A stretch of 64,000 bases of DNA from Hydrangea macrophylla (taxonomy: Eukaryota; Streptophyta; Magnoliopsida; Cornales; Hydrangeaceae), in contig CM066982.1 in the NCBI GenBank assembly GCA_033977485.1, positions 29,862,218-29,926,217 on the forward strand, given 5' to 3'. The position numbers and the translations under genes were made by a program. Within the stretch, counting starts at the first letter, position 1. Each line of letters starts with the position of its first letter. Shown piece by piece: positions 1-35,253 of this stretch. The notes under the pieces were generated by a model, which saw only the letters and a list, made by a program, of their open reading frames with translations, was not told the DNA's origin and ran no database searches.

Positions 1-862
1 CTCTTAATGTCTTGGGACTCAAACCATGTTTTGAATAATGATAATTTAGATTAAACCCAGAGGCTTAGGGATCCAAATTAGTGAATAAATTCATGTCTCA
101 TCCTTGTTCATAATCATTCATTCATTCATGTACATTGATGCTTATAGTTAGAACTAGTTCTTGGATGAAGTTGGACTTAGTTGAATTTAATTGAACATAA
201 CCTATGATTAATTGCCTTTTGATATTATATCTTGTCTAAGGCATGTGTACTAACCTTTGTTTTGTAGCGCTTTGAGGTACAATTTCTCAACCCTTCTCTA
301 GTTTAATCTATTTTATTGATTTTAATTGATTTTTCGACCCCATGTGCGACACCTTAGCTTAGGTTTTGCCTTATGTGTATATATGTGTTAGAGACCTTTC
401 TTAGGTTTATTTTTGCATGCATTGCACGTTTGATATTCGCGGCCGGATCCCGGGTATGTTTTCTAGTTCTCTATTGCATATCATGATGTTTGCTAGTTGA
501 ATTATGTGACTTATGAATGATATTTTACCGTTAGCAATTTTGCACCCTTTCAACATGCTTGTGTTATGTATACCTATATATGTATTAATTGAGGGCATGC
601 TTAGATTAATAACTTGATTAAAAAGGATGTTGAGTAGAGGCCTATCGTGAGATAGGATGAAAGGGGGTGTTTTAGTCCGCCGGGCTCCTTCCCCTTTCAT
701 TCCATAATCCCCGGACCCAGTTTATCTTTGGTTTCGCAAAAGATCAGTTTGCTTTTAAAATGGTTTCTTAATTTTTTCCTTTTAAAAATTAAGTGGCGAC
801 TCTTTGAAAATTGAAAAAATTTGCTTTAAAAGTGGGTAAAATTTGAAAACCTGCGATATCCA
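1..862 (+). repeat. 5' LTR, last 862 bp only
   Basis: Positions 1-862 repeat 19735-20596 with four substitutions and no gaps. The LTR ends in CA at 861-862, six bases before the primer binding site. About 2.5 kb of this LTR, including its promoter, lies left of the window. Confidence 0.95.
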
Positions 863-885: not shown

Positions 886-2277
886 TCGAACCCAGAATCT
901 CTGGTTTCGCAGACCAGAATTCTGATTTTGGGTTCACTCGAGGATTAGACTTGAAAGCATCCTTTTAATCAAATTAATTAATTTTTGTGTGCCTGTTGCA
1001 TTGCACTTGCATGTCTCGCCAGTCGATTGCACGAAACTATGACCTTGGAGGCTCGGGGCAACCCGGTCGGTCAAGTCATCATGGGACCGTGTGATCACCC
1101 TTGATCTCGTACCATGTTTTGGTATATGAAGCATCCTATCGGGTGTGTGTCAAGGGTCCCTTATTTGACCAAAACCCGGCCTTTTGCATAGTAGTTTCCA
1201 AAGAACCTTTCAAAATTAGGAATTCAATTCTTGATTAGGATTTATGTGCTAGGGAGTTTTGTATGCCCGAAGGGGATTACTTGAGATGATGACGTTGCTT
1301 ATTTGATAAAAGATATGTAACCTCTTAATCACTTTTGGGCAATTCCTTTTCATGTCCTATGACATTTAAGAATAAGCCAAAACTTGATTATAAGATTACA
1401 TCTCTTATATCGTGTTTAGCTAAGCATCATTGACCTTGTATGTATCCAAATTCATGAAAAGTGCGGTGATAATCCGATCATGTGATCCTCCTACCCAAAG
1501 AATTTTAAATGCGTTTTTGGAAGCAAATAGATTTTTGTATCTTTATTCCAAGACATTCAATCACTCTTTCAAAATTTTTGGAGTTCACTTTTGAATTAAA
1601 ATTTCAAATCAACCATATTTGAAGAAAGAACCTAAAATTCTTGGAACCCAAAATTCTTGAAAGAGTTTGAAAAGTTTTACCAACTAAAGGAATGCTTTTT
1701 CAAAGCAAAATTTGGACCTAATCACCTTTTTGTTAAGGAATATAATCCAAGAAATCTCTGCAATTAAAGAAATCATTTTCAAATAAATTTCAAAAGCAAA
1801 GTTTCAACCCAACCATCTTTTGTTTAGAAATGTTGTTGTTTTCAAAGGAAAGCTTCTTAAGGAATTTTGAAAAGATCCCATCATCTAGGGGAAATACTTG
1901 TTAAATGGATTTCAAAAATTCTAAATTTGAAAACCTTGAAGGGGTAAAAAGGATCACAATGAAGGGAGAAATTAGCACACTCAGCATGGATGAGGATCTT
2001 ATGTGCTTACGTGTTTATGTGTTAGGATTAGAATTTTCTTTTATTTAGCATATAGAATAGGCACACACACACACATGCATTTGCATCCGTATGGCATATG
2101 AATCATTCATGAAAGCATATGAATCAATAATAAAAGAAAAAGGTAAACAAATAATGTTGAAAAGGGAGAAAAAGTTGTTAAAGTGACTAAAACAAATATG
2201 ACTGTAGGTAAAAGATAGAATCAACTGCGAGCATAGCCTGGTACAGAGATTCTACTGCAAGACTAGTGAGAAAAAAG
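886..2277 (+). other. Untranslated leader of the Tat-type element
   Basis: About 1.4 kb between the primer site and the gag ATG has no convincing reading frame. It is A/T rich, with a short CA microsatellite near 2062-2076. Packaging or splicing signals are expected in such leaders but none can be recognised by eye. Confidence 0.6.
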
Positions 2278-5200
2278 ATGGCGCAAGAGGCTAATGCAAG
2301 GGAGATGACAGAGTTAAGAACAATGGTGGAGCAGCAAGCGGGTCAAATGACTAGAATGATGACCATGATAGAGGCGCTAGCACGACAGCAGCCAGGCATT
2401 GATCCTCCTCACAGGGATGAAGATTGGTTTGATGAAACAGAAGGGGTTGAAGCGCCGAGAATAGAAAGGGAGAAACTAGAAAAAGAAAGGGCTGAGAAAG
2501 ACAAGTTGATGACTGAGAAAATGGAGAAGTTGGAAAGGGTGGTCCGAAAGGCCCATGGGGTTGATACCTATTTGTTGGAGTTAGAAGGGTTGTATGAGGG
2601 GGTTTGTGAGGTATTGCCCGCAGGATTTAAAATGCCTGTATTCGACAAATTTGATGGAACCGGGAACCCCCGTAGCCACATTAGAATGTGTATAGGGGCA
2701 TTTCAACCTAGCGGTCTAAGCACGGTCATGATGGCAGTCTTGTTTCAACAGACGTTAACTGGGGCTGCTTTGTCTTGGTATCTCACTCTGGAACCAGGGA
2801 AGACCAGAAATTGGGAAGAAGTGGTAAAAGCGTTTGTGGCCCAATACGAATGCAACCAGGATCTGGATGTTACTATCAGGGATTTGGAGACTACCCGACA
2901 GGGGAACAAAGAATCTTTTGCTGAATTTCTAAGCCGATGGAGAGGAAAGGCTGCTAAGATGATACAAAGGCCGACTGAGAAAGAGCAAATCCGAATGCTG
3001 ATGAAGAACCTCCAACCCGTCTATCAGGAGAAAATGAGGTTCCAATCCCTCAATACCTTCACCGAGGTGTTCGATGTAGGAACCAGAATTGAAGACGCGA
3101 TACAGGAAGGGGTCATTAAAAAGGAGGAGCCAGTGAACAGGTACAGACGACCGAACTATGGAACAGGAGGAAGACATTCGGGAGGTCATTCAGGGTCTAC
3201 AGACGTGAACGCGCTGAGTGAACCTGAGAAAAAGTTTGATGTAACCAGAAATTACCCGAAGAGGGGAGAGGATAAGCCTTTAAGGAGGTTTTCAGAGTTA
3301 GGAGTATCTTTGTCCACGGCTCTCGATAGGCTGGTAGCAAAAGGACATCTTCGCCTACTGGAGCCACGACCCAGACCAAATCCACCACCTCCAAATTTCA
3401 AGTCTAATTTATATTGCAAGTTCCATCAGGAGCAGGGGCACTCAACTGACCGGTGTTTAAGACTAAAGCATGAGATTCAAGATTTGATTGACAAGAAAAT
3501 AATATCTGAACCACCCACCAACCCGCCAAATGTTACCAGAAATCCACTACCAGAACATCATGCCGTGCCACCACCCAGAATTTACTACTTGGGAGATGAG
3601 GAGAGCTCTTTTGACCCATCAGCATTGATCACCAAGTTGGGAAGTCCGAGAAAAGCTTATCAGATGTTGGAGGATCCGCAAATTTGCACTCTAAAAGGAT
3701 TGGTAGATGAAGGCAAAGGGAAAGAAATAGAAGGGACTGTTGACGCAGATTGGTGGGCACCGGAAGCTGACAATTCACTGTGGTACAAAGGGGATGGTAT
3801 TCAGGATCCTGTTAAAGTTAAGGAGGACCTTTGGTATGAAAGTGAGGAGGAAGGTTTGAAAATTGTTGAAGCACAAGATAGACCTTGGGTTAAAGAAGGT
3901 ATTAGTCACCTCACACGATCCGGGAGGCATTTTAAACCACACGAACTTGAGGAGGATCACCCTGAACAAGAAATGAATAAAGGAAAAGGGAAACTGAATG
4001 AGGAAGAAGAGGAGGACAGAGTCTTGAGACAGATAAAGAAGACACAGGCAAATATCACTATTTGGGGGTTGCTAATCGCTTCCAAACATCATAGGCAAGC
4101 AGTCCTTGACGCTCTCAATAAGTCGGATGTTTCCATCGATGTTACTCCGGAAGATCTCGTTGGCATGATCAGCAGAAGCCCAACCCTGGCTATATCATTC
4201 TCTGAAGCTGACTTACCTCCTGGGGGACCTGTTTTTAATAAGCCGTTGCACATCACCGTTGAGTGCTTAGGAAATTCTCTACCGGCTTGCCTCGTCGACA
4301 ACGGGTCTGCATTAAATGTATGTCCTTTTCGAACAGCTAAAAGGATGGGGCTCGATGAATCTACATTTATACCATCGGAACAAAAGGTGAGGGCTTATGA
4401 TAATACTCTACGGGCAGTGATGGGGATCATCTTTCTGAATCTCTCTGTCAGGACTGGTGAAAGAGAAATGGAATTCCAAATCATTGACATTCCTGCATCA
4501 TTTAACCTGCTTTTGGGAAGGCCGTGGCTTGATAGTTTGGGTGCCATTCCATCAACCATCCATCAGAAAGTTAAGTACGTTTGGAAAAACAAGGTATATG
4601 ATCTTCTAGGGGATAGCTGGATAAATGTGTCTGGGGCCTCATCAAGTGCTCCGATTTTAGAAGTACAGATACAAGAAGGTGAAGCAAGTTTGGGTGGGTT
4701 TGAATTCATTAACGTCATAGAAGAGGGGAAGCCAAAGGAATTTTTACCACTATATTTTGATCAATACGCCAGTCCATTGGTGGCCGGGATCATGAGAAAA
4801 ATGGGGTTCTTCCCAGGGATGGGTTTAGGTAAGAAACACCAAGGACTGTCAGAATTCCCAAGTATTATCACGCAAACCCACACCCATGGGCTAGGATACT
4901 CGCCAACCAAGGAAGAGTTGAAGAAGAAGAAGAAAGCAACGGATGCACCGATGGAACCATACATGAAAACTCTCAATGGGTACTTCATCAAGCAGGGAGA
5001 AGATTTTCCGTTTTGTGGTTTTCCAGAGCCGTGGATGGATGAAGCAGAGAAGCGTATGAAGCCAGGATTCGAGATTTTCTTTGCGCATGACTTTTCTGAG
5101 TATGAGGACCCTTATCTTCAGCAGCCTGAAAAAACTGCCGTTACTCAGGACTGGGTCTGTACTATGGATGGCTCGGCAATGAAGAACCTGCTAGAAGAAG

Positions 5201-5379
5201 GATACAAGAAGATCGAAAAAGGGAGCTCTGCAGAGATCAAAGATGAGGGTGAGAATGGTCGGGATAAAGAAGACAGTAACGAGAATAAAGAAGGGGAGAA
5301 ACCAAAGTACAAAGGGAAGCCGGAAGAAGTGGAAATAGAAGAGATATTCAGGAAGAAGAAAGGGAAGATCATTTCATAG
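2278..5379 (+). CDS. gag: Gag-protease polyprotein of the Tat-type element
   Basis: An open frame of about 1030 codons encodes the capsid and protease. The frame is open from a GTG at 2266, but the first ATG is at 2278 and is preferred. A retrotransposon gag domain lies near residues 120-240 (start FDKFDGTGNPRSHI). A zinc-knuckle-like YCKFHQEQGHSTDRC is near residue 380. The aspartic protease active site is LVDNGSALN near residue 675, followed by LLGRPWL. A G-patch-like glycine motif (MGFFPGMGLGKKHQG, near 845) follows the protease, as in many Tat-lineage gag-pro proteins. The C-terminus is a charged lysine/glutamate tail. The frame is uninterrupted. It stops at 5377-5379, five bases before the next ATG, in a different frame, so pol must be made by re-initiation, frameshift or splicing. 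Confidence 0.9.
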   Translation: MAQEANAREMTELRTMVEQQAGQMTRMMTMIEALARQQPGIDPPHRDEDWFDETEGVEAPRIEREKLEKERAEKDKLMTEKMEKLERVVRKAHGVDTYLLELEGLYEGVCEVLPAGFKMPVFDKFDGTGNPRSHIRMCIGAFQPSGLSTVMMAVLFQQTLTGAALSWYLTLEPGKTRNWEEVVKAFVAQYECNQDLDVTIRDLETTRQGNKESFAEFLSRWRGKAAKMIQRPTEKEQIRMLMKNLQPVYQEKMRFQSLNTFTEVFDVGTRIEDAIQEGVIKKEEPVNRYRRPNYGTGGRHSGGHSGSTDVNALSEPEKKFDVTRNYPKRGEDKPLRRFSELGVSLSTALDRLVAKGHLRLLEPRPRPNPPPPNFKSNLYCKFHQEQGHSTDRCLRLKHEIQDLIDKKIISEPPTNPPNVTRNPLPEHHAVPPPRIYYLGDEESSFDPSALITKLGSPRKAYQMLEDPQICTLKGLVDEGKGKEIEGTVDADWWAPEADNSLWYKGDGIQDPVKVKEDLWYESEEEGLKIVEAQDRPWVKEGISHLTRSGRHFKPHELEEDHPEQEMNKGKGKLNEEEEEDRVLRQIKKTQANITIWGLLIASKHHRQAVLDALNKSDVSIDVTPEDLVGMISRSPTLAISFSEADLPPGGPVFNKPLHITVECLGNSLPACLVDNGSALNVCPFRTAKRMGLDESTFIPSEQKVRAYDNTLRAVMGIIFLNLSVRTGEREMEFQIIDIPASFNLLLGRPWLDSLGAIPSTIHQKVKYVWKNKVYDLLGDSWINVSGASSSAPILEVQIQEGEASLGGFEFINVIEEGKPKEFLPLYFDQYASPLVAGIMRKMGFFPGMGLGKKHQGLSEFPSIITQTHTHGLGYSPTKEELKKKKKATDAPMEPYMKTLNGYFIKQGEDFPFCGFPEPWMDEAEKRMKPGFEIFFAHDFSEYEDPYLQQPEKTAVTQDWVCTMDGSAMKNLLEEGYKKIEKGSSAEIKDEGENGRDKEDSNENKEGEKPKYKGKPEEVEIEEIFRKKKGKIIS

Positions 5380-5384
5380 CTGAT

Positions 5385-7799
5385 ATGGGAGGGGAAAGCA
5401 AGAAAGAGTGGATCTTTGAGTCTAGCGATAGGTACCCTCCTCCCCCGGAGTCTGTATTGGCCCAAATGAGGCGTCTTTCCATTTCTATGTCTGTTGTAAT
5501 TGCTCCCAAGAAAGTTAATGAGAATGTGACTAATTCTGCTTACTTGACTGCGCATAATAATAACTGTGATGCATGTGATGAAAATGATGAAATACCTCAT
5601 GAATTGCAAAAGTTAATTGAAAAAGAAAATGAACCTGCATGCAAAATCATGGAAAGCACTCTAACCGTTAATTTGGGAAATGAAGGTAATCCACAAAATG
5701 TTTCTATCGGCTCCACACTTAATAATGAGGAAAGCGAAGAATTAATCAATCTATTAAAAGAATTCAAGGATGTCTTTGCATGGTCCTATGATGATATGCC
5801 AGGAATTGATCCAGAAATTGTCCAACACCATATTCCCCTTTTCCCAAATTCGAAACCCGTAAAACAAAAATTAAGGCGAATGAGGCCTGAATGGGCGCTT
5901 AAAGTGAAAGAGGAGGTTGAAAAGCAATTGAGAGCTGGATTCTTGATTGTCACCGAGTATCCTGATTGGGTTGCCAATATTGTACCGGTTCCTAAAAAGG
6001 ATGGTCGTGTTAGGGTTTGTGTAGATTTTCGAGATTTGAACAAAGCTAGCCCTAAAGACGATTTCCCTTTACCCCACATCGACGTACTAGTAGACAATAC
6101 CGCAGGACATGAACTTCTGTCTTTCATGGATGGGTTTTCAGGGTACAACCAGATCTTAATGGCATCAGAGGATAGAGAGAAAACAACTTTTATCACACCT
6201 TGGGGGACTTACTGTTATAGAGTTATGCCGTTCGGGCTTAAGAATGCAGGTGCAACTTACCAGAGAGCTGCCACCACATTATTACACGACATGATTCATA
6301 AAGAAGTAGAAGTATATGTGGATGACATGATAGTAAAATCCAAAGAAAGGGGAGGGCATCTAGAGGCATTAAGAAAGTTTTTCGGAAGGCTGAGAAAGTT
6401 CGGGATGAGGCTAAATCCGCAAAAGTGCACCTTTGGGGTCACTACTGGGAAACTACTAGGGTTTCTGATCACCCAGAGAGGAATTGAGGTAGATCCCACC
6501 AAAATCCAAGCTATAGCCGAAATGCTGCCACCAAAGAATGAGAAGGAGTTGAGAGGATTCTTAGGAAGAATACAGTTCATTAGTCGCTTCATATCCAAAC
6601 TCACCATGACCTGCGACCCGTTGTTCAAATTATTGAGAAAGGGGGAAAAGTTCGAATGGGATAACCAGTGCCAAAAAGCCTTTGAAAAGATCAAAACCTA
6701 CCTTCAAAACCCGCCTGTCCTATCACCTCCTAAGCCCGGGAAACCTCTATTGCTATACCTATCTGTAGCCGAGAACTCAATGGGGTGTATGCTGGCCCAA
6801 GAAGAGGAAGAGGGGCATGTGGAAAAAGCCATATACTACCTAAGTAAGAGGATGACTGGGTATGAGTTGAACTATTCACCGTTGGAGAAAGCTTGTTGGG
6901 CCTTAGTTTGGTGTACCCGTCGCCTTAGGCATTACATGCTAGCCTTTCCTATCACCCTGATATCCCGAATGGACCCACTCAAATACCTCTTTGAAAAACC
7001 CGCCCTGACCAGTAGGATATCCCGTTGGACCATGATGCTGGCTGAATTCGATATCAGATATGTCACTTCCAAATCTGTCAAGGGGAGAGCTGTTGCCGAA
7101 TATTTAGCTGACCTCGCCATAGAATCCGAAGAGAAGGGAGAATTTAAGTTTTCGGATGAAGAAGTAATGGAAGTAAAAGAGGACCTTTGGAAAATGTACT
7201 TTGATGGAGCAGCTAATCAAATAGGATACGGGGTAGGGATTATCCTCATATCACCTAGCGGGGCCCCCACTCCATTGGCCATTAAGCTCAAGTATAATTC
7301 GACTAATAACACGGCAGAGTATGAAGCTTGTATAATTGGGATGGAAGCAGCCTTGACTTTGGGGGTAGAAAAGATCGATGTTTTCGGAGACTCTAATCTA
7401 ATAATATCACAAGTGAGGGGTGACTGGAGAATAAAGCATGAGAAGTTGAGACCTTACCATGAATACCTAGAGAGCCTGAAGGTGCAAATCAAAAGAATTT
7501 CGTTCTATTACCTTCCCCGTGAGGAAAACCAATTGGCAGATTCCCTAGCAACCTTAGCCTCAATGATCCAAATTCCTGTAGGAGTCTCCATGATTCCCTT
7601 GTCTATAGAAGAGAGAACCCGGCCTTCGTATGAAATAATCGCCGCCATTGGAGAAGAGGGAGAAGTTGAGATACCATGGTATATAGATGTTTGGAATTTT
7701 GTTGAGAAAGGAGAGTATCCCGGAGGAGCTTCGGAGAAGGATAAGAGAGCGATTCGTAGATTGTCAGCTCAATTTATAATCTATGCGGGAAAGTTGTAG
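5385..7799 (+). CDS. pol: Reverse transcriptase with two RNase H domains (5' part of pol)
   Basis: This 804-residue frame carries the reverse transcriptase, with FPLPHIDVLVDN, the WGTYCYRVMPFGLKNA block and the catalytic YVDDM near residue 311. The usual Ty3 RNase H/connection follows near residues 450-525. A second RNase H domain lies near residues 600-725 (MYFDGAANQIGYGVGI, then TNNTAEYEA, then DSNLIISQV). A second, archaeal-like RNase H is the hallmark of the Tat lineage. The frame ends in TAG at 7797-7799. The same frame is then open through integrase to 8921, so this stop is probably a nonsense mutation in one long pol frame and not a natural gene end. Confidence 0.92.
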   Translation: MGGESKKEWIFESSDRYPPPPESVLAQMRRLSISMSVVIAPKKVNENVTNSAYLTAHNNNCDACDENDEIPHELQKLIEKENEPACKIMESTLTVNLGNEGNPQNVSIGSTLNNEESEELINLLKEFKDVFAWSYDDMPGIDPEIVQHHIPLFPNSKPVKQKLRRMRPEWALKVKEEVEKQLRAGFLIVTEYPDWVANIVPVPKKDGRVRVCVDFRDLNKASPKDDFPLPHIDVLVDNTAGHELLSFMDGFSGYNQILMASEDREKTTFITPWGTYCYRVMPFGLKNAGATYQRAATTLLHDMIHKEVEVYVDDMIVKSKERGGHLEALRKFFGRLRKFGMRLNPQKCTFGVTTGKLLGFLITQRGIEVDPTKIQAIAEMLPPKNEKELRGFLGRIQFISRFISKLTMTCDPLFKLLRKGEKFEWDNQCQKAFEKIKTYLQNPPVLSPPKPGKPLLLYLSVAENSMGCMLAQEEEEGHVEKAIYYLSKRMTGYELNYSPLEKACWALVWCTRRLRHYMLAFPITLISRMDPLKYLFEKPALTSRISRWTMMLAEFDIRYVTSKSVKGRAVAEYLADLAIESEEKGEFKFSDEEVMEVKEDLWKMYFDGAANQIGYGVGIILISPSGAPTPLAIKLKYNSTNNTAEYEACIIGMEAALTLGVEKIDVFGDSNLIISQVRGDWRIKHEKLRPYHEYLESLKVQIKRISFYYLPREENQLADSLATLASMIQIPVGVSMIPLSIEERTRPSYEIIAAIGEEGEVEIPWYIDVWNFVEKGEYPGGASEKDKRAIRRLSAQFIIYAGKL

Positions 7800-7856
7800 A
7801 AGAAGTCCTACACCGGTTATAATTTAGAATGTCTATATGGAAGGGAAGCAAGGAAA

Positions 7857-8921
7857 ATGATGGAAAAAGTACATGAAGGAGTCTGTGGGCCCCACATGAG
7901 CGGACATATGTTGGCCAAAAAGATAATTCGGCAAGGATACTATTGGACAACTTTAGATAAAGATTGCTGTGAGTATGTTAAGAGATGCCATAAATGTCAG
8001 GTTCATGCAAATTTAATGCATACCCCACCTTCCCAGCTCTATAGCATGACCACCCCTTGGCCATTTTCTGTATGGGGTATTGATATCATTGGAGAAGTAA
8101 TTCCGAAAGCTTCAAACGGGCACCGGTACATAATTGTGGCAATAGACTATTTTACCAAATGGGTGGAAGCGGCATCATACGCAACTTTGAAAGCAAAAGA
8201 TGTGGTGAATTTTATCCAGAAGAATGTAATCTGCAGATACGGGGTGCCAAATGAGCTTATTTCTGACCACGGGAGTCATTTTCAGGGAGAGGTTATTCCA
8301 TTTCTAGAGAAGTATAGGATCACCCACCACCAATCCTCACCATACACACCACAAACAAATGGAGCAGTAGAGGCCGCAAACAAGAATGTGAAAGCCATCC
8401 TGGGGAAAATGACGGATACGTATAGAGATTGGCATGAAAAATTACCTTTCGCTTTATGGGGATATCGAACTTCTGTGAGAACCTCAACTGGGGCTACACC
8501 GTACTCATTAGTCTACAGGATGGAGGCTGTTTTACCAGTGGAAGTTGAAATACCATCTCTAAGAGTTTTGGCAGAATGTGAGGTAACTGAACTGGAATGG
8601 TTGCGAGGGAGATATGAGGAATTGATATTATTCGATGAAAGGAGGTTGGCTACTGTGAACCATACTCGGGGATATCAGAAAAGGATAGCTCGTGCTATCA
8701 ACAAAAAGGTTCGCCCAAGGAAGCTTGCTGAGGGCGACCTGGTCCTCAAAGAACTTAAAGCGCCCATTTATGACCCACGAGGAAAATTCAAACCCAACTG
8801 GGTCGGACCATATATCATCAAGACACTCCTCTCCGGGGGAGCTGCCTATCTCATGGACCTAGATGGAGTTGAGTTTAAACAACCAATCAACCTCGATCGC
8901 CTCAAAAAATACTTTGCTTGA
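7857..8921 (+). CDS. pol: Integrase (3' part of pol)
   Basis: This 354-residue integrase is in the same frame as the RT-RNase H segment and lies 57 bases past its stop. The N-terminal HHCC-type zinc finger is visible (HEGVCGPHMSGH, then CHKCQVH). The catalytic core has the three acidic residues in WGIDIIGEV, ISDHGSHF and NGAVEAANK. The basic C-terminal part ends in LDRLKKYFA. No chromodomain is seen, as expected for Tat and not for chromoviruses. ATG 7857 is only the first methionine after the stop; in an intact copy integrase would be part of the pol polyprotein. Confidence 0.92.
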   Translation: MMEKVHEGVCGPHMSGHMLAKKIIRQGYYWTTLDKDCCEYVKRCHKCQVHANLMHTPPSQLYSMTTPWPFSVWGIDIIGEVIPKASNGHRYIIVAIDYFTKWVEAASYATLKAKDVVNFIQKNVICRYGVPNELISDHGSHFQGEVIPFLEKYRITHHQSSPYTPQTNGAVEAANKNVKAILGKMTDTYRDWHEKLPFALWGYRTSVRTSTGATPYSLVYRMEAVLPVEVEIPSLRVLAECEVTELEWLRGRYEELILFDERRLATVNHTRGYQKRIARAINKKVRPRKLAEGDLVLKELKAPIYDPRGKFKPNWVGPYIIKTLLSGGAAYLMDLDGVEFKQPINLDRLKKYFA

Positions 8922-9595: not shown

Positions 9596-10678
9596 CTACC
9601 TCCTGACCAGGGACTGAACCTCAAGCAAATACTCTGCGGTCGGGACAACTGAAGCCGGAACCCTCCAAAAGGGAGCTGATACCCTATCATGCCAAGCCTC
9701 TGCGAATATCCTCACGGTCAAAGGACGTAGAACAGAGCTCCTCGAGAAATCAGCAGTAATAACATCAGGGACATCCTGGAGCAAGCCGAACTGGCGGGCT
9801 ACCCGGCTGGGAATGTAAAAGGTGGTAACTCGCAGACCAGTCAACCAAATCCCGGGGCGCCCAGGAAGACGTACTGCGACAGAGCAATAAGTCCAGCGAG
9901 GGCATATCCAACAAATGTCCTCATAACTCAAATCTCGAAACCAAGCAAGCCAGCTGGTAACTGTGCGGGAGGGGTAATGGACGTCCATACGATCATAAGG
10001 AAGCTGTCTCCCAGGGGGGAGGTGAGCAAAGAAGCCCAAGCGCTCGAAGAGCCAAATCTGTAAAACGTGGGGTGACCCCGAAAGCAGCATCGATCCCGCG
10101 GTATGTGCATAATCCAGACCTAGAAAAGTCTCCCCCAGAACGAGCATAACAGCACTCCGCATCTCTCGGAGGCCATATACGATCGGAATCAGGATATCAG
10201 TAGAAGACTGGAATAAGAAGTGCGAAAGCATCGCTAGAGAAAGGGCGTTCCGCCGGGTGACCTGATACCTCCTATCGTCAGGATCGCCAATGGGTGCGTA
10301 AATGGAGGAGAGGCGGTCGAAATCAATATGATGGTCATGAACAAGGGAGCCAGCAGCGCCCCAAGAAATGCCAAGAAGGGCCGATAAATCCTGAATATAT
10401 CCTGCCTGGATCTGCGGAACAATCAAATCGGCATACGGATCGGTGTGGAGGATGGCGCTAAACTCCTCAAAGAGGGGACAGACCTCCTCGTGACCAAACC
10501 GAAAGACGTGAAGAGAAGGGTCCCAGCACATGATAGCTGCTCGAAGCAAGTCCTCATCCAGAGCTGTATGACGAAAAGCGAAAAGGTCTGTCAGTCTGTG
10601 GGATTCAAGGTTGAGCCGATCTATGCCAGAAAGGGAATCCATCCATGGGTACAAGATGTCGGAACTGATAGGGGCCAT
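9596..10678 (-). CDS. Antisense accessory protein of the Tat-type element, PMD/DUF7745-like
   Basis: A 360-codon uninterrupted frame runs opposite to gag-pol. The ATG at 10678-10676 has a TATA box about 100 bases upstream on the same strand. The protein contains WDPSLHVFRFGHEE followed by CPLFEEFSAIL. That is the tryptophan/proline and glutamate pattern seen in plant proteins annotated as DUF7745 or plant-mobile-domain-like and often carried by retroelements. No membrane segment or catalytic motif is obvious. The neighbouring antisense gene at 11242-14297 also looks PMD-like, so the element may carry two members of one superfamily. Domain assignment is from memory of family patterns and needs a profile search. 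An intact frame in a young copy suggests recent selection or recent birth. Confidence 0.7.
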   Translation of the reverse strand: MAPISSDILYPWMDSLSGIDRLNLESHRLTDLFAFRHTALDEDLLRAAIMCWDPSLHVFRFGHEEVCPLFEEFSAILHTDPYADLIVPQIQAGYIQDLSALLGISWGAAGSLVHDHHIDFDRLSSIYAPIGDPDDRRYQVTRRNALSLAMLSHFLFQSSTDILIPIVYGLREMRSAVMLVLGETFLGLDYAHTAGSMLLSGSPHVLQIWLFERLGFFAHLPPGRQLPYDRMDVHYPSRTVTSWLAWFRDLSYEDICWICPRWTYCSVAVRLPGRPGIWLTGLRVTTFYIPSRVARQFGLLQDVPDVITADFSRSSVLRPLTVRIFAEAWHDRVSAPFWRVPASVVPTAEYLLEVQSLVRR

Positions 10679-10778
10679 GAAGATAGGAGGGAGATATAAA
10701 AAGGAAAAAGTTTGAATGTAAAGAAGGAAAAATGGCTCTAGAAATCATGAATGAACCTAGGAATGGGTAAATGGCAGC

Positions 10779-10786
10779 TTATATAG
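10779..10786 (-). promoter_or_regulatory. Predicted TATA box of the single-exon antisense gene
   Basis: On the minus strand the sequence is CTATATAA. It lies between the palindrome array (10803-10901) and the ATG at 10678, leaving about 100 nt for TATA-to-ATG spacing. The position suits a stand-alone antisense promoter. Confidence 0.55.
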
Positions 10787-10802
10787 AAAAAGGGGCCGGA
10801 CC

Positions 10803-10901
10803 GGCACTCGGTGTAAAGTAGCGGCACTCTCTGAGTGCCGGCCGGCAGTCACTGAATGCCGTCCGGCATTCACAGAGTGCCGCCCAGCCTCACCGAGTGC
10901 C
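10803..10901. repeat. Palindrome array B: five 17-bp inverted repeats at 20-21 bp spacing
   Basis: Sites start near 10803, 10823, 10844, 10865 and 10885. The best copy is GGCACTCTCTGAGTGCC at 10823-10839: a GGCACTC arm, a 3-bp centre and the inverse arm GAGTGCC. The first site is a degenerate half (GGCACTCGGTG). The array sits just upstream of the antisense TATA box. Equivalent arrays occur at 14563-14663 and 17699-17818. Confidence 0.85.
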
Positions 10902-11241
10902 GGCCCAGGTTTAAAAGGCACATGGGTCATCTTATAACTTCAATCAGCCCAAACCTGCACAAAATTTGAATAAAAAATGCTACCAATCATCATTTTAAGC
11001 ATCATTGTTTGCACCACTCATCAAAATAAAGCAATAAAGCCAAGAGAGGGTATTCATGATCTAAATAAGCAAAGGGTATAAGATTTAAGATCTAATACGG
11101 GGAAGCAATCAAGCATGAATATAAACAAATTCAAAATGGGCACGCAGGCCACCATGTATGAGTATTGCTAAATTCGCCTAAATAAGAGAATTCGATATTC
11201 TTTGTCCTCGCAGGGACATAACATAACATAAAGGAGATAAG
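10902..11241. other. Spacer between the two antisense genes
   Basis: About 340 bp of A/T-rich sequence separates the palindrome array from the end of the spliced antisense gene. It would hold that gene's 3' untranslated region. The plus-strand motif CACATGGG at 10920 also occurs 51 bp beyond the LTR array (near 17870), hinting that some flank was copied with the array. Confidence 0.4.
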
Positions 11242-11995
11242 CTATCCTCGTCTATGACGAGGATTCCTTCTGGGCGTTTGCTGAGCTGCCTTACCTCTCC
11301 CAACTCCGCCATCGCCTCCATCTCCGCCATCACCTCCATCTCCATCACCTCCTTGGTAGCCGCCGCCTTGGCCACTACCGCCAGCACCTCCCTGATAGCC
11401 GCCGCCCTGGCTCAATTGGAACTCCTGGATTTGTCTCCTCAAAACCGCCATCTCAGCTTCCTGTAAGAAAGAACAGGCAAAATAAGTAATGCAATTAAGA
11501 AAAGAGAGAGGAGAAGGGAAAAAGAAGAAAGGGAGTGTAATACCATAGCCCTAGCCTGAAGATCAACGTTGGTCCTTGCTCCATCAGCCTAAAAAAAAAA
11601 AAAAAAAAAAAAAGAATTAGAATACAGTCATTAGAATAAAGGTGATCAGTTGGATTCTTTTTTTTGAAGATAAATAAGAAAATCTTTTATGGCTGTTTGA
11701 TTTTTTTTTTTTTTTTTTTGCAAATAAAATAAGAGAATTTTGTTCTAAACAAAAAGGGATTTACCCTCCATTCGCGTCCATGAATCCAGTCTGGACGGTG
11801 TGAGCATATGACAGACCCTCTTCAGCATAATCCCGGGGGACTGTATCATATTGTAGAGGGATAGTCGGGACATTCTGAGTGTAAGGGGTCAGCTGATACA
11901 TGGTCTCTTGACCCATGTCGACCGTGGGAACACTCCAATTCCACTGCGGAAGGGCTGGGGGTTCAGCAACCCCAGGAATAGGCTGCAAATAGGAG

Positions 11996-12031
<36 letters not shown>

Positions 12032-13331
12032 TGAAAAGGAATGGAAAGCAGAAATAAAAAGAGTATACATATGTGAATGTGAATAATATTTGTTACCCGG
12101 ACGACATCCATGAGGGGAAAATTATGCATAAGAGAGTTCAATCTAAAGGTTGCATAACCATCAGGGTCGTCCAGAAGATTTGCAATATTCTCTCCGTCTA
12201 GAGCAGCCACCAGGTCATCATGGTCCAGGGTCGCTGTGCTCCTCATAGTAGCTGGAGGAACCCACGGCACATAAAAGTTTGGGGCAGCAAGAGACTGCCT
12301 AGTCACCCTCTCACCAAGGTACCATTCCCGGCACGCCTCACCCACCATTAGAACCCTCAATCTAGAATAGGCCACCGCCGCCTGAATTGCTTCACCTGCC
12401 TCTGGGAGGGCCGCTGCCCACGGGTTCCATATCACATGAATCTCACGCAATCGTGAGCCCCGACTTTTCGGCCCGTTGCCTCTTTCCTCCACTTCAAGCC
12501 CTGAGGCATGATAGCCGCCTCGTTGTCCCGAGTACTGGGAGCTCTCATCCGGAGGTATTCATGCGACCATATCTGCAAGGCAAAATAAAGAGGCAAAATT
12601 CAGTTTTCAAAATTGGAGGAAAGAAATGCAATAAAAAAATAACAAAAGGAATAAAGATGAAATGAATAAATAAATGAATGAATAATACAGTTGAAGCTTT
12701 ACCTCCCAAGCTCTCCAGTACCCGCCCGTGGAGGGGGAATTTCCCCTAGAAACCTCACTCATGTGATTGTAGAGAGTGGCCAAACCTGCCCCTCCCCAGT
12801 TGTATTGGAAGATGCGATCGACGTCTGTGAGAGAAGCCAAATACCCCAGACTGATTGTGTCACCCTTTGTACTCATCAACGAGCAACCCAGCACATACAT
12901 GATGAAGGCCCTGGCCATTTGATCGTCAGTGAAGGCCTGATTCTTGAAGGTATCCAGGAACCATTTTGCGGGAACTATGAAATCCCCTGGATGAGCCCCA
13001 AGCAAGTCAATAATTTCTTCATGACGGTTCTGAAGATCGTCATAGCGGGCAATAGGGAGGCCACCAAATGGGACGCCAGTGATCATGGCGAAGTCTAAGG
13101 GAGTCATCGTCATCTCCCCGAAAGGCATGTGGAAGGTGTTCGTTGTGTCCCACCACCTTTCCGCCAAGGCTTGAATATGGGTCCGGTCATTTGTACTTTT
13201 CTCCAGAAGCAAAGCAAAGAGCCCAAATCCAGCATTGTTGACCAAGGTTCTCACATCGTCAGAGAGCTCCATATACCACCTTCGGCCATGGGCCATGCTC
13301 CCATGACCCTTGAGGACAAATTCTGGAGTCT

Positions 13332-13364
<33 letters not shown>

Positions 13365-14297
13365 AAATAAGAAAAGGAGGGAATAATAAATGTTCTCTTT
13401 TGGGATTCAAGCAATGCAATTCAGTGAATAAGGAAAGTAATTCCCGAGTCTAGGCGACTCGTTGATTTGAAAAGTAATAAAATTCTTTGAGAGTTTAAGC
13501 GACTCATTGATTTGAAAAATAAGAATAAATTTTTTTTTTTTTTTTTTAGAGTCTAAGCGACTCATTAATTTGAAAGTAATAAAATTCTTTGAGAGTCTAA
13601 GCGACTCGTTGATTTAAAAAATAAGAATAAAATTCTTCTTGAAAGTCTAAGCGACTCATTGATTTGAAAGTAATAAAATTCTTTGAGAGTCTAAGCGACT
13701 CGTTGATTTGAAAATAAGAATAAAAATCTTCTTGAGAGTCTAAGCGACTCATTGATTTGAAAATAAAAAGGGGATCTCTTTTGAAGTCTAAGCACAAAAA
13801 TGTTTGTGGGTTGTAAGCAATGATTGGATTTTAGGTTCATTCAAAATATTAAGCATATGCAAAATTCATCCATATTAGCACAACCGCCCATTAGCAATGA
13901 ATAAATGGAATAATGAAATCAATGCGTCCAACTAAGGGCAATAAGAAAAGAGAGGGGCACAATACCAAGCCTCAAATCCTAATCATGAAAGAGGGGATTG
14001 GCGAATAGGTTGAATTTTCAAATATGCATTCATACATGCATTGACTATCATATACTACATTGGCATAGAAAGGGAGAAAGGGCATTCATGCATGCATTCA
14101 TTGCTCATCATTCATAGCACTACATTGCATTATCTCATCATAAGCATAAAGAGGAAAGTTTGGGAATGTACCATTCGATTGAAGGCCCGTGCCGAGAGAT
14201 GTGCCCCAGGATCGGCAAGTAAAACTGATGAACTGTGGACCGGATTGGGTTTGTACTTCTTCTTGGGGGGACCATAAGACCCTGAACCACTAGCCAT
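11242..14297 (-). CDS. Antisense spliced gene, plant mobile domain (aminotransferase-like) protein, with a frameshift
   Basis: Six exons are predicted on the minus strand: 14297-14172, 13329-12703, 12572-12097, 11982-11765, 11588-11544 and 11460-11242. Most introns show a GT donor (ATG-GTACAT, GAG-GTAAAG, CGG-GTAACA) and a poly-T tract then CAG acceptor. The first three junctions are in phase 0. Exon 1 starts MASGSGSYGPPKKKYKP, a possible nuclear signal. Exon 2 has the PMD pattern HMPFGEMTMTPLDFAMITGV and WWDTTNTF. Exon 3 starts IWSHEYLRMRAP and later reads VIWNPW and GERVTRQ. The last exon is glycine rich. Within exon 3, near 12450-12490, the first half and second half are in different frames, so this copy is probably broken. 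The exon 4 to 5 junction is also out of phase as drawn. PMD proteins (MAIL1/MAIN) act in silencing and genome stability in host plants. Confidence 0.7.
13440..13800. repeat. Short tandem repeats inside intron 1 of the antisense gene
   Basis: Seven units carrying TCTAAGCGACTC start near 13454, 13499, 13557, 13601, 13651, 13695 and 13744, so spacing is 44-58 bp. They alternate between GCGACTCATTG and GCGACTCGTTG versions. A T run lies at 13533-13548. They fall wholly within the predicted intron. Confidence 0.75.
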
Positions 14298-14562
14298 GGA
14301 AAGATCTACAAGCAAAGGGGGAAGTCAATGTTCATATGAGAAATCTTGAAGGAGAGAGATCAAATAACATGAAGAAACATGATTTCAAACAATGATTAAA
14401 ACAAAGATGTAATCTTTATGAAACATTCCTTGATTGTGAGTGGTTCTTGAAGAAAGGATCAAGAAAGGTGAGATTTTGGAGAAGAAATCCGAGAGAGGAG
14501 GAAGGAGAGAGTGGAAAAGAGAGAAGAAGAAACCAAGTTTTAAACAATCTGCTGCTCAGACC

Positions 14563-14663
14563 GGCACTCGGAGAAAAGGCACCGGCACTCAGCGAATGCC
14601 GCCCAGCATTTGGTGAAGTGCCGGCCGGCACTCAGTGAGTGCCGGTTCCCCTCACCGAATGCC
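14563..14663. repeat. Palindrome array A: five 17-bp inverted repeats at about 21 bp spacing
   Basis: Sites start near 14563 (degenerate), 14584, 14606, 14627 and 14647. The 14627 site is a full GGCACTCAGTGAGTGCC. The array lies about 270 bp upstream of the ATG of the spliced antisense gene. A TTTAAA element at 14539-14544 is the nearest TATA-like sequence on that strand. Confidence 0.85.
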
Positions 14664-15430
14664 GCCGCGTGTGACAGGTGGCCTTTTTCCCCTGATTTTC
14701 ATTATTTACAAAAGGACCCCCGAATGTTGCTCCCATGTCCTTATAAATTTTCCCTCGTTTCAAAAAGACCCCCGAGGTTTGAAAAATGAGTTTTAAAGCC
14801 CTCTTGTAAATGGGAAGTAGCCCCTGCTGGTTGAAAATTTTGTCAAGAAACACCCGTTTGCAATAAATAGGTTAGTCAACTCTGGATTTCTCTGAAATTG
14901 AATTTGATTGAGGTTTAATTGACTTTGGAAAATAGGAAAATCGAGTCTGATAGACTCCGGATTTCTTTAAAATTGAATTTGATTGGAGTCTAACTGACTC
15001 CCAATTTTGGAAAAATGATTTGATATAAGAGGGTTTGGCTCCAATTCTTTGAAAATTGATTCAAATTGAGCCTGATTGGCTCTGATTCTTTGAAAATTGA
15101 TTTGACTTGAGCCTGATTGGCTCCGATTCTTTGAAAAGAGATTTGAATTGAGCCTAATTGGTTTCAACTCTTTGGAATTTGATTTGATATGAGAGTCTTG
15201 TTTGATTCTGGAACTTTGAAAATTGATTTGGTTCGACTCCAGGTTAGGAGAAAATTTCAGTCGACTTTAATGTGATTGATCTTCGATTTCGGAAATTAAA
15301 AGCGAATATGAATCCAAGTGTTTCCAGGTTTAGGAAAGTTAATTTGAAATTTAATCAGCTCCTGAAAGTTAGGAATTATGAGTTGAACCAAGTCAACTTT
15401 GATTTTACTTGGTGAGGCAGTAAATTTGCA
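14664..15430. repeat. Spacer with degenerate tandem repeats
   Basis: From about 14860 to 15260 a loose repeat of roughly 55-60 bp recurs. It contains GAGCCTGATTGGCTC-like words followed by TTTGAAAATTGATTTGA. Copies are diverged. No coding frame is supported. Confidence 0.6.
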
Positions 15431-16745
15431 TCTCATCTTTCAGAGTGCTACCTGATTCGGCTTAGCCGATCAGAAGATTTTGGGGGATTTTGAGCATAGA
15501 GCTGCTCAATCTCTCTGCGTGCTACCTGATTTGGCTTAGCCGATCAGATGATTTTGGGGATTTTGAGCATAGAGCTGCTCAATCTCTCTGCGTGCTACCT
15601 GATTCGGCATTATGTCGATCAGGGGATTTTGAGCATAGAGCTGCTCAATCTCTCTGCGTGCTACCTGATTCGGCTTAGCCGATCAGATGATTTTGGGGAT
15701 TTTGAGCATAGAGCTGCTCAATCTCTCTGCGTGCTACCTGATTCGGCTTAGCCGATCAGATGATTTTGGGGGATTTTGAGCATAGAGCTGCTCAATCTCT
15801 CTGCGTGCTACCTGATTCGGCATTATGTCGATCAGATGATTTTGAGCATAGAGCTGCTCAATCTCTCTGCGTGCTACCTGATTCGGCTTAGCCGATCAGA
15901 TGATTTTGGGGATTTTGAGCATAGAGCTGCTCAATCTCTCTGCGTGCTACCTGATTCGGCTTAGCCTATCAGATGATTTTGGGGGATTTTGAGCATAGAG
16001 CTGCTCAATCTCTCTGCGTGCTACCTGATTCGGCATTATGTCGATCAGATGATTTTGAGCATAGAGCTGCTCAATCTCTCTGTGTGCTACCTGATTCGGC
16101 TTAGCCGATCAGATGATTTTGGGGATTTTGAGCATAGAGCTGCTCAATCTCTCTGCGTGCTACCTGATTCGGCTTAGCCGATCAGATGATTTTGGGGATT
16201 TTGAGCATAGAGCTGCTCAATCTCTCTGCGTGCTACCTGATTCGGCATTATGTCGATCAGATGATTTTGAGCATAGAGCTGCTCAATCTCTCTGCGTGCT
16301 ACCTGATTCGGCTTAGCCGATCAGATGATTTTGGGGATTTTGAGCATAGAGCTGCTCAATCTCTCTGCGTGCTACCTGATTCGTCTTAGCCGATCAGATG
16401 ATTATGGGGATTTTGAGCATAGAGCTGCTCAATCTCTCTGCGTGCTACGTGATTCGGCTTAGCCGATCAGATGATTTTGGGGGATTTTGAGCATAGAGCT
16501 GCTCAATCTCTCTGCGTGCTACCTGATTCAGTTTAGCCGATCAGATGATTTTGGGGATTTTGAGCATAGAGCTGCTCAATCTCTCTGCGTGCTACCTGAT
16601 TCGGCTTAGCCGATCAGATGATTTTGAGGATTTTGAGCATAGAGCTGCTCAATCTCTCTGCGTGCTACCTGATTCGGCATTATGTCGATCAGATGATTTT
16701 GAGCATGAAGCGGCTCAGTCATTCAGCGTGCTACCTGATTTGGCT
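15431..16745. repeat. Satellite-like array, 18 units of 66 or 73-74 bp, with higher-order order
   Basis: The core GAGCATAGAGCTGCTCAATC starts at 15492, 15565, 15631, 15704, 15778, 15844, 15917, 15991, 16057, 16130, 16203, 16269, 16342, 16415, 16489, 16562, 16635 and (degenerate) 16701. Steps are 73-74 or 66 bp. The short unit has CATTATGTCGATCAG in place of CTTAGCCGATCAG and lacks TTGGGGA. From 15565 to 16203 the order 66, 73, 73-74 repeats as a block of about 213 bp. Open frames across the array are by-products of the repeat. Confidence 0.93.
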
Positions 16746-17222
16746 ATGGAGTATAAGGCGCAGGGCGCATCTCAGTCAATCAGACGATTCTCATATGCAT
16801 ATGAAATGTACATACATCAGTCATAATGTTCCTAGAGTAAGACGGTGTTATTATAGGATGATTTGATGTATTTGGTGCATTTCTGATAATAGGAAGAATA
16901 ACGTGATTCGGGATCATCACACTTAGGAGCACAAGGTATAAGATTGCATGAGCATGTGCATCACGATGAGATAGGTGCATTCATCTGTGTGACTACTTGC
17001 GTTGGTGTTTTGTTGTCCTTTGCCCGAACTACGTCCTGGTCTGATTCCCATTGGGATACGTAGGCAGCTCACCTTTGAGCACGACCAGCTTTTGGCTATC
17101 TGCACATCCGATTTTGCAATGCACTTTTGTTTTTACCTGGATTCGACTATTTGGTCAAAGGCTTGTCTTTCACACAGGCTTTGACATTCGCTTGTGATAT
17201 GCGTTGCTTCACGAGCTCTGTC
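16746..17222 (+). other. Region before the 3' LTR with the conserved GATACGTAGGCA motif
   Basis: No gene is supported. At 17026-17067 the sequence repeats the post-integrase motif (GAACTACG, CTGATTCCC, GGATACGTAGGCAG). The rest is unique sequence leading to the polypurine tract. Confidence 0.55.
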
Positions 17223-17236
17223 AAAGAGGGGCAAAC
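17223..17236 (+). promoter_or_regulatory. Polypurine tract
   Basis: The purine-rich AAAGAGGGGCAAAC directly precedes the TG that opens the 3' LTR. This is where plus-strand DNA synthesis would be primed. Confidence 0.85.
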
Positions 17237-17698
17237 TGTAGACACCCCAATTTTGACCAAACGTCAAATCCAGGGATTGGTTATCTCTCAAAGACCGATG
17301 ATGATATCCGTGACATTCGAGGATTTTCCCAAGAAATTCAAAATCTTCAAGAAAAAAAATTAGAAAATAATAAAAATGATAAAGGGAGAGGATTCAGGCA
17401 TTCGGGAGGGAAACCCGAACGATGAAGAACGTGTGAGAAACCCAGTCTGGAAATCCATTTTATTTTAAAGAGGGAGTTTTTCTTGAAAAAAAAAAAGAAG
17501 AACAAAATAAATAGATTTTTTTGAAAAAGAGAAAATACAAAAAAGAAATAGTATATTCAAAAATATACCATGCACATGGTTGATACCGTGCACATGGGGG
17601 GTCTTAATGCAAATATATACATACATAAAATAAAAATTTTTGTTTACACCAACATATTTTTGAAAAATCAAAAAGAGGGACAAAATTCAGTTAGCCCC

Positions 17699-17818
17699 GG
17701 CACGCGGAAAACGCGGCGGCACTCACTGAGTGCCGCGCCGGCACTCACTGTTTGCCGCCCGGCACTCAGTGAGTGCCGCCCGGCACTCAGTGAGTGCCGC
17801 CGGCACCCAGCGAGTGCC
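17699..17818. repeat. Palindrome array L in the LTR: six sites at 19-22 bp spacing
   Basis: Sites start at 17699 (degenerate GGCACGCGG), 17718, 17740, 17761, 17782 and 17802. Copies at 17761 and 17782 are GGCACTCAGTGAGTGCC; the copy at 17718 has an ACT centre. The array ends 100 bp before the LTR TATA box. All three arrays begin with one degenerate unit at the low-coordinate end, so they are related duplications in the same orientation. Confidence 0.92.
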
Positions 17819-17917
17819 GCTGGCTGTAACAGACTGCATTTTCTCACATATTCTAGAAGAAAACCTTGCACATGGGTTTTCACCCGAATTTACCCATCTA
17901 TCCCTGGAATAATGGCC

Positions 17918-17925
17918 TATATAAA
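17918..17925 (+). promoter_or_regulatory. Predicted TATA box of the LTR promoter
   Basis: TATATAAA lies in GGCCTATATAAACACACC, 681 bp into the LTR. It is the best TATA match near the array. The transcription start is expected about 30 bp downstream. Confidence 0.65.
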
Positions 17926-18610
17926 CACACCTTCTCTTCCATTTTGGGGGACTTGAATTTGAAAATCAAGAGATAGATACATACAAGAATCATATAGATT
18001 TTAGAGAGAGAGAGAAGAAGAATTTCTTGAAAAGCTTGAAGAATTTGAAGAATCTTGAAGAAGAATTTGGAAAAATCTTGGAAGATCCTCACAAGAAGTT
18101 GAAGAAATACTTGAGGTCCTAGAGGTAACCTCTTAATCCTTGATAGAATTAGGATTATTCAATCACAAGTTCATAGTTCTAGGAACTTTTTCACATTTTC
18201 AAAACCTCTCTTCTTATCCCATTTCATCACACACCACCAAGAACTTGTGATTGAATCTCATGACATTTCATCAATTTGGATGTAATTAGCTTTGGGTTTA
18301 AGACAAATTTGACTTTAAAGAGTTTGTATCTTTAGTCTTCTAAGTATTCTTTGATTTTCCTTACTTCTATTTCATTCAAAAGGTGCATGAGGTCTTCCAT
18401 ATCTCATTGGACTTCTTTGAATTTGTTTCTTCAATTTCTAAGATCTCATGATCTATATGGAGATTAGAATGAATCATAGTCTTAATCTACATATAATTAG
18501 TGAGATGCAAGTCCTAATCCATGACTTGAATCTCTTCATTAAGAAATCTTATGGAATCTTTATTATATTCCAATGAGGTTTGAGTAGATTTTAACTTCAT
18601 TTAGACTCCC

Positions 18611-19050
18611 ATGACCATCAAATGGTAGGAGTGATAAGTTGAATTCAAACTTGAGTCCATAGGTTTGAGTTCTTATTTGAGGATTTTGTGAAGTTCATTT
18701 CAATACTTCATCAAGATCCATAAGTGTAGTATGCCTCATAGTCTCCAATGACCATCAAATGGTAGGAGAAAATGTGTTAATTCAAGTTTACTCCCATGGC
18801 TTGAACTAATCTTTCTCTTAGGTTTTAAGAAGTCTTTCATACTTCATCTAGAACCTATGAGCATGTATGTCTCTAACTCCAATGACCATCAAATGGTAGG
18901 AGTGATAAGTTGAATTCAAACTTGGGTCCATAGGTTTGAGTTCTTTATTTGAGGATTTCGTGAAGTTCATTTCAATACTTCATCAAGATCCATAAGTGTA
19001 ATATGCCTCATAGTCTTCAATGACCATCAAATGGTAGAAGAAGTAGTTTG
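18611..19050. repeat. Four-unit tandem repeat inside the LTR
   Basis: ATGACCATCAAATGGTAG recurs at 18611, 18748, 18882 and 19020, so the unit is 134-138 bp. The rest of each unit is similar but diverged. Confidence 0.85.
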
Positions 19051-20596
19051 GTTTGAGCCCCAACTTCATGTTCTAATAGTTGAGGCCAATCAATAAACTT
19101 GAACTAGCAAAATGAAACAGTGTGTTCATAAACTGTTTTTGATCAAGGATTTTTAGTTTGAAATCCGACCGTTGGAATCGAATGAAACCAACGGGAAAAT
19201 GTTCATAACACATTGTTTTACCACTGGGATTTTTGTTTTAGCAAGATCTTGTGATTAGAAGGGTTTGATCATGGTTTTTGTGAGCTAATCATAATCTGTC
19301 CAGAGTTCTAGAATACTTTTAGAATAATAAGTCCGTTTTGAAATTAATAAATCAGAACCCTAACCAAGTTTTCATGACCTTTAATAATTTTTTATAAGTA
19401 CCTTAATGTGTTAGGAAGGTACCCTAAAAAGATCTAAGTGTTTCTCATTTTTTTACTATTTTTAGAAAATCATACAAGATCTCTGGTCAGAGAGTTGCAG
19501 AATCCTGAGTGAGGTCTAGTATTTTCCATATTCCCGGAGATCTAACCGTTGAAAGCTCAATTTTCTTTTTGGGTTAGAAACTAGACTCACAGAGGCATAA
19601 CATATCAAAAAATCAGTAAGATCCAACCGTTGAAAGTATTTTATTTCCATTTTTGAACGTCGGGTCTGCTCTCTGGAAATCACCAAAAACTGCTACTGTT
19701 TTTGTCTAATCTTATTTATTTCAACTCAAATGGTCTCTTAATGTCTTGGGACTCAAACCATGTTTTGAATAATGATAATTTAGATTAAACCCAGAGGCTT
19801 AGGGATCCAAATTAGTGAATAAATTCATGTCTCATCCTTGTTCATAATCATTCATTCATTCATGTACATTGATGCTTATAGTTAGAACTAGTTCTTGGAT
19901 GAAGTTGGACTTAGTTGAATTTAATTGAACATGACCTATGATTAATTGCCTTTTGATATTACATCTTGTCTAAGGCATGTGTACTAACCTTTGTTTTGTA
20001 GCGCTTTGAGGTACAATTTCTCAACCCTTCTCTAGTTTAATCTATTTTATTGATTTTAATTGATTTTTCGACCCCATGTGCGACACCTTAGCTTAGGTTT
20101 TGCCTTATGTGTATATATGTGTTAGAGACCTTTCTTAGGTTTATTTTTGCATGCATTGCACGTTTGATATTCGCGGCCGGATCCCGGGTATGTTTTCTAG
20201 TTCTCTATTGCATATCATGATGTTTGCTAGTTGAATTATGTGACTTATGAATGATATTTTACCGTTAGCAATTTTGCACCCTTTCAACATGCTTGTGTTA
20301 TGTATACCTATATATGTATTAATTGAGGGCATGCTTAGATTAATAACTTGATTAAAAAGGATGTTGAGTAGAGGCCTATCGTGAGATAGGATGAAAGGGG
20401 GTGTTTTAGTCCGCCGGGCTCCTTCCCCTTTCATTCCATAATCCCCGGACCCAGTTTATCTTTGGTTTCGCAAAAGATCAGTTTGCTTTTAAAATGGTTT
20501 CTTAATTTTTTCCTTTTAAAAATTAAGTGGCGACTCTTTGAAAATTGAAAAAATTTGCTCTAAAAGTGGGTAAAATTTGAAAACCTGTGATATCCA

Positions 20597-32926: not shown

Positions 32927-33140
32927 ATGAGCCCCAAAACAGCTGTAAATGTTTTGGTTCTTTGTTTCATTTCACTCAGTTTTTTTATTGCTTTTGGAGC
33001 AGAAAAAGTCATTGCTAGTACTCCTCCCAACTGTCAGGAACTTTGTCTCCCCACATAGGAAACTTGAGCTTCCTTAATTTGATCAATCTCCAACAGCAAC
33101 TCCTTCCATGGAGAAATTCCCCATGAAGTTGGGAACTTAT

Positions 33141-33701: not shown

Positions 33702-33805
33702 ATTTTCACCTTGCCTCAAATTCCTTCCCATCAGTCCTCAGAGTCTTCATCTTGTGATCTTCAACTTCCACATCGATAGTGCATCACCTTTGCCATCCCC
33801 CAAAG

Positions 33806-35227: not shown

Positions 35228-35241
35228 GGATTCTCAACCGA

Positions 35242-35253
35242 GCTCTGATACCA
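35242..35253 (-). promoter_or_regulatory. Primer binding site for initiator tRNA-Met
   Basis: On the minus strand TGGTATCAGAGC lies two bases inside the LTR at 35256. This is the canonical copia primer site. Confidence 0.93.

Follow-up and report, generated by a model that had tools for sequence, protein, structure and literature searches.

A shared palindrome module at three predicted promoters of a Hydrangea macrophylla retrotransposon and its candidate element-encoded ligand

Why should one retrotransposon carry the same tandem palindrome at three separate places? The question is raised by a 64,000-nucleotide stretch of Hydrangea macrophylla DNA (assembly GCA_033977485.1, contig CM066982.1, positions 29,862,218 to 29,926,217 of the forward strand), hereafter the window, in which a long terminal repeat (LTR) retrotransposon with traits of the Tat lineage bears arrays of a 17-bp inverted repeat, GGCACTC-N3-GAGTGCC, in its LTR and beside two antisense genes, A and B, for proteins of the plant mobile domain (PMD) superfamily. 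We consider these arrays to be probable protein-binding promoter modules. More tentatively, we propose that they are shared sites for an element-encoded PMD-superfamily protein with an anti-silencing role like that of the VANC proteins.

The arrays and the promoters beside them

When we scanned the whole window for the motif with up to three mismatches, all 10 matches fell inside three arrays (Table 1) and none elsewhere, against a mean of 0.90 and a maximum of 5 in 100 dinucleotide shuffles. Exact copies of CGGCACTC (nine) and GAGTGCCG (eight) were likewise confined to the arrays, and TRF found a period of 21 independently at each of them. The earlier note had given every array five or six 17-bp units. 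The arrays are real and unit starts are indeed 19-22 bp apart, but only 10 of the 16 unit slots have two mismatches or fewer, five slots being perfect. Five others are half-sites at array ends with one good arm only; the remaining slot, near 14605, contains an indel. The palindrome extends one base deeper into the centre in six of the ten core units (GGCACTCA-S-TGAGTGCC).

Measured from the nearest unit edge, and with transcription starts inferred, array 1 lies 17 bp from the TATA-like TATATAAG upstream of the DUF7745 gene (gene A), and array 3 about 97 bp from TATATAAAC in the LTR. For array 2 the only such sequence is a TTTAAAA 18 bp away, ahead of the PMD gene (gene B), whose predicted ATG lies about 264 bp downstream of the array. 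All three predicted transcription units therefore have an array upstream, as the earlier note had said of the LTR TATA box and both antisense genes, and its notion of one module common to three promoters is supported for predicted promoters, which we presume to be active.

Tandem arrays are frequent in such elements; they were recorded in 32 Retand clusters (63 in the tables) in the available part of PMC11963269, and the present element has at least three more. An explanation resting on this commonness nevertheless seems improbable to us, since the palindrome unit occurs at three separate sites, one upstream of each predicted gene, with BLAST similarity ending at most about 15 bp past an array edge (arrays 2 and 3), a placement that three random noncoding positions would achieve about once in ten thousand by a rough estimate, and since changes are unevenly spread over the unit.

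Symmetry within the unit and order among the arrays

To count constraint we used 10 of the 16 slots, leaving out the five end half-sites, the indel unit and the central three bases. In these ten units neither CGGCA..C in the left half nor G..TGCCG in the right half varies, all seven arm changes fall in palindrome pairs 5 and 6, and the innermost pair is intact in 6/10. The chance of seven changes falling within at most two of eight mirror pairs is 0.0016, or 0.025 if they are merged into five events, and both values serve as a guide only, because kinship among the units makes them non-independent and the test was designed with the pattern already in view. The conservation pattern fits a two-fold symmetric protein, so that the dimeric DNA-binding factor proposed in the earlier note is supported as a fit.

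Palindromes may also act through folding, and each array could give a hairpin of about 100 nt in the full-length transcript, as a source of small RNA or as a structural signal in foldback RNA or DNA. Each whole array does fold into one long RNA hairpin (z -12.3, -7.4 and -11.6 for arrays 1, 2 and 3), and the two ends of array 1 form a perfect inverted pair of 13 bp, CCGGCACTCGGTG...CACCGAGTGCCGG, that closes it as a stem, while the outer centre bases of its units 2 and 4 (TCT, ACA) pair mutually. Permuted unit orders folded at least as well in 13/120, 12/120 and 25/720 cases, respectively. However, any tandem palindrome array folds in this way, and with flips allowed as-good folds were found in 43, 419 and 647 of 1000, the advantage being lost for arrays 2 and 3. 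Moreover, the only pair with changes in both arms is non-complementary and thus lends no support to base pairing kept inside units, and folding of the sense transcript would leave the promoter location unexplained. A foldback origin of array 1 is possible; a foldback role for the arrays we hold to be unlikely.

The unit sequence allows one further origin, namely descent, as relics, from the subterminal repeats of a CACTA element or another DNA transposon. The maize TnpA motif, which we take to share CCG-N-CACTC with the unit, gives an 8/12 match, a weak one, and a literature search on it yielded nothing pertinent (one Klebsiella paper). No transposase domain was found in six of the seven element frames of at least 150 aa, the frame at 5145-5612 not being among those scanned, and we regard this origin as very improbable.

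The arrays had also been described as homologous copies in the same orientation, a reading on which the evidence is divided. Forward alignment scored better than reversed in two of the three pairs when flanks were left out (102/109 for arrays 1-2, 123/108 for 1-3 and 103/86 for 2-3), but with 60-bp flanks this was so for arrays 1-3 only (109/128, 130/116 and 114/116, in the same order). The same-orientation statistic was reached in 310 of 2000 unit-order shuffles. The summed three-array alignment was matched or beaten by only 25 of 2000, and the arrays may share some unit order. A degenerate unit cannot serve to mark the low-coordinate end, as had been suggested, since arrays 1 and 2 are degenerate at both ends. 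Nor is the spacing of about 21 bp evidence that a factor binds cooperatively along one face of the DNA: constant spacing comes for free when a 21-bp unit is duplicated in tandem, which makes spacing and helical phasing uninformative.

Candidate ligands and a model of shared control

Both antisense genes encode PMD-superfamily frames. The protein of gene A matches Pfam DUF7745 (E 2.3e-7) and PMD (E 4.4e-7). Gene B matches PMD at E 9.3e-26 and DUF1985 at E 9.9e-4, the latter with 19.5 bits, below the curated cut-off of 35.1. The predicted PMD fold matches DNA-bound VANC21. A viral structure library gave one strong unnamed match (probability 1.00, E 2.4e-4, TM 0.45 by query length, 13.6 A rmsd). 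The predicted DUF7745 structure was rejected as too poor (pLDDT 37.5, three sequences).

VANC21 is encoded by the Arabidopsis transposon VANDAL21 (Hiun). According to PMC5735166 and PMC10398659, it binds a 9-bp motif whose density matters and induces methylation loss, and its motifs form quickly evolving tandem arrays located in introns and in noncoding DNA upstream. The Hydrangea element resembles this system in encoding a protein of VANC predicted fold and in having clusters of short tandem motifs in its noncoding DNA, among them those in upstream regions and in a predicted intron. From this layout, a gene for the predicted fold with tandem sites at predicted promoters and further palindromes in a predicted intron and at 14.9-16.7 kb, we infer self-recognition and anti-silencing. 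The differences are considerable: ours is an LTR retrotransposon with gag, reverse transcriptase (RT), RNase H and integrase and not a VANDAL DNA transposon, its proteins are PMD/DUF7745 rather than DUF1985 by the Pfam cut-off, and its sites are 17-bp palindromes of different GC content where VANC21 has a directional 9-bp motif. Binding and demethylation have been reported for VANC21; for the Hydrangea element they are proposed.

We therefore word the model conditionally. The arrays would be site clusters for a single protein that binds DNA sequence-specifically and with two-fold symmetry; its half-site, CGGCA-NN-C, would stand in inverted pairs recurring every 21 bp, and through these clusters the LTR promoter and both antisense promoters would come under one control. 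The most likely ligand would be a PMD-superfamily protein from the antisense genes, either the PMD or the DUF7745 protein, and binding, presumably as a dimer, would prevent DNA methylation of the promoters, as VANC proteins suggest by analogy, so that the antisense genes would reopen themselves and the LTR. An element-encoded, VANC-like ligand is a possibility that we advance with reserve. The earlier note had allowed for the element's own PMD protein, and this candidate gains weight from the VANC21 fold match. An anti-silencing outcome, as opposed to simple activation or repression, is more doubtful.

Past exon 2, gene B may be alternatively spliced or broken in this copy. Read by eye, the frame continuing PMD exon 2 (12097-12571) hits a stop shortly past the predicted acceptor, and the long open reading frame (ORF) at 11761-12558 lies in a different frame from that continuation.

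Alternatively, the arrays could be enhancers for a host dimeric transcription factor at all three promoters, with the PMD proteins doing something else. Promoter positions and mirror-symmetric constraint would suit any dimeric factor. No plant factor is known to us to recognise a CGGCA-NN-C...G-NN-TGCCG site, and binding by the element's own protein would account in addition for the co-occurrence of PMD genes and tandem arrays; we think a host factor rather unlikely. HTLV-1 offers a precedent for LTR repeats of this size: Tax, which recruits cellular factors, activates the viral LTR by way of three 21-bp repeats (excerpts of PMC5775265). These LTR repeats (TxRE), transcription in both directions, with the antisense gene HBZ, and regulators encoded by the virus itself parallel what is seen or predicted in the Hydrangea element, but the proteins are unrelated and the likeness is an analogy only, the sequences not having been compared.

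Two further candidate signs were set aside. As a sign of hypomethylation, CpG retention in the arrays proved weak, other GC-rich stretches of the window being similar or higher. A core AGT common to the VANC21 and VANC6 motifs was dropped, its A and G being varying arm positions here. Peptide-pattern searches matched 43 stretches in genome_contigs and 106 in viral_contigs, none of which encodes a relative; no related DNA was found in these viral, bacterial and archaeal contig collections, a result uninformative on plant sister elements.

The element, its surroundings and related systems

The window start and the region at 19735-20596 are 99.5% identical over 862 bp in self-comparison, which indicates an LTR retrotransposon of young age; the window start truncates its 5' LTR. 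A stretch like a primer binding site begins at about 868, after the 5' LTR, and the 3' LTR start was inferred because TG follows a purine-rich tract. The frames for RT/RNase H and for integrase lie in one reading frame with a stop codon between them at 7797-7800, and pol therefore looks interrupted in this copy.

Table 1. Features of the element in the window (positions in the 64,000-nucleotide stretch).
Feature	Position	Strand	Basis and remarks
5' LTR, 3' part	1..862	+	LTR self-match; cut by window start
gag + pol	2212..8921	+	Pfam matches, stop-to-stop frames
Capsid + G-patch (gag)	2212-5379	+	Pfam
RT + two RNase H-type domains	5289-7799	+	Pfam; RT_RNaseH and RVT_3 within single ORF
Integrase	7800-8921	+	Pfam
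Antisense gene A, 360-aa DUF7745 / PMD-superfamily protein	9596..10678	-	Pfam, translation; ATG at 10678
TATA-like TATATAAG of gene A	10778..10785	-	Sequence reading
Array 1	10801..10903	.	Five slots: three with <=2 mismatches, half-site at each end
Antisense gene B, PMD	11761..14297	-	Predicted exons; more frames downstream
Gene B predicted exon 2, carrying PMD	12703-13329	-	Open frame; borders read by eye
Tandem repeats, GAGTC-N5-GACTC palindromes	13446..13766	.	Seven copies with <=1 mismatch; predicted intron 1 of gene B; second palindrome family
Gene B predicted exon 1	14172-14297	-	Open frame; borders read by eye
Array 2	14561..14666	.	Five slots: two with <=1 mismatch, one indel, half-site at each end
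3' LTR (TGTAGACACC...ATATCCA), ~3.36 kb	17237..20596	+	Start inferred, end from LTR self-match
Array 3, in U3 of LTR	17697..17822	.	Six slots, five with <=2 mismatches
LTR TATA box TATATAAAC	17918..17926	+	Sequence reading

Two traits fit the Tat lineage of Ty3/gypsy (Retand/Ogre group): a pair of RNase H-type domains after RT, a trait given in PMC9289625, and ORFs on the antisense strand in the interval from pol to the 3' LTR. The latter are also a feature of maize Grande (gene23), Retand and RIRE2, and antisense genes in this region, like PMD domains in gypsy elements, are already known (PMC7264820 and PMC11963269 for the former, PMC9289625 for the latter, all in part). PMC7264820 describes Grande gene23 as having a promoter of its own, from which it is transcribed, and as encoding a nuclear protein. 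The LTR of the Hydrangea element, at about 3.36 kb, exceeds the 315-1194 bp range in the Retand survey of PMC11963269. The antisense ORFs surveyed there, as far as the excerpts go, mostly carry TRP28, the domain being found in all but two Retand clusters; here TRP28 (PF04195) was not found in the three antisense frames scanned, short exons lying outside that scan. A site module common to LTR and antisense promoters is not described for Grande, Retand or RIRE2 in the portions of the literature available.

Further tandem palindromes occur in the element at 14.9-16.7 kb of the window. Four perfect GAGYC-N5-GRCTC palindromes, which resemble the intron family, stand in and just before a 41-bp-period repeat at 14943-15123, and a 73/213-bp-period minisatellite at 15445-16745 holds 13 copies (at most two mismatches) of the palindrome GATTCGGCTTAGCCGATC. 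Elsewhere in the window, arrays of GGCGACGAAAT...ATTTCGTCGCC palindromes, which we take to be typical of DNA transposon ends, lie at 23250-23683 and 31404-32343, and a 41-bp tandem palindrome, TTATGTCACTTTTT...AAAAAGTGACATAA, with inverted copies too, at 53412-53778. A short copia element occupies 33140-35825, with 571-bp direct repeats (98.8% identical) around copia-type gag and Pol_BBD frames. Duplicate LRR receptor kinase genes at 36312-38781 and 43668-46192 share about 85% identity over 2.3 kb, the second copy being broken over several frames.

As far as searches of the open-licence literature show, the link between the VANC21 and PMD folds and the candidate sites are new. The partly available literature on VANC with plant mobile domain does not report the fold link; a search on GGCACTC with retrotransposon gave nothing relevant among the 20 papers listed of 36, judged from titles and abstract starts, and one on Tnt1 LTR boxes found nothing. 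The functions of plant retrotransposon antisense genes and of PMD are both described as unknown (excerpts of PMC7264820 and PMC8616336), and PMC8616336 suggested that transposon-encoded PMD proteins may counter silencing. With a predicted fold match and a candidate site upstream of every predicted gene, that suggestion becomes a test with a named protein and a named DNA. It could be, though we think it somewhat unlikely, that plant LTR retrotransposons with antisense PMD genes run a sequence-specific, self-encoded anti-silencing system of VANC type, in which PMD-superfamily proteins on tandem palindromes at every promoter of the element would keep the LTR and antisense genes unmethylated. Host PMD-family proteins, MAIN and MAIL1 with PP7L, are likewise tied to transposon silencing and a promoter motif in the sources available, although these are host genes with a different motif, CATGCAGTTT, and chromatin contact of the complex is stated there as unknown. 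If that broader reading is true, the PMD of host genes such as MAIN and MAIL1 would be a sequence-reading DNA-binding domain, which would suggest how these host proteins could recognise promoters.

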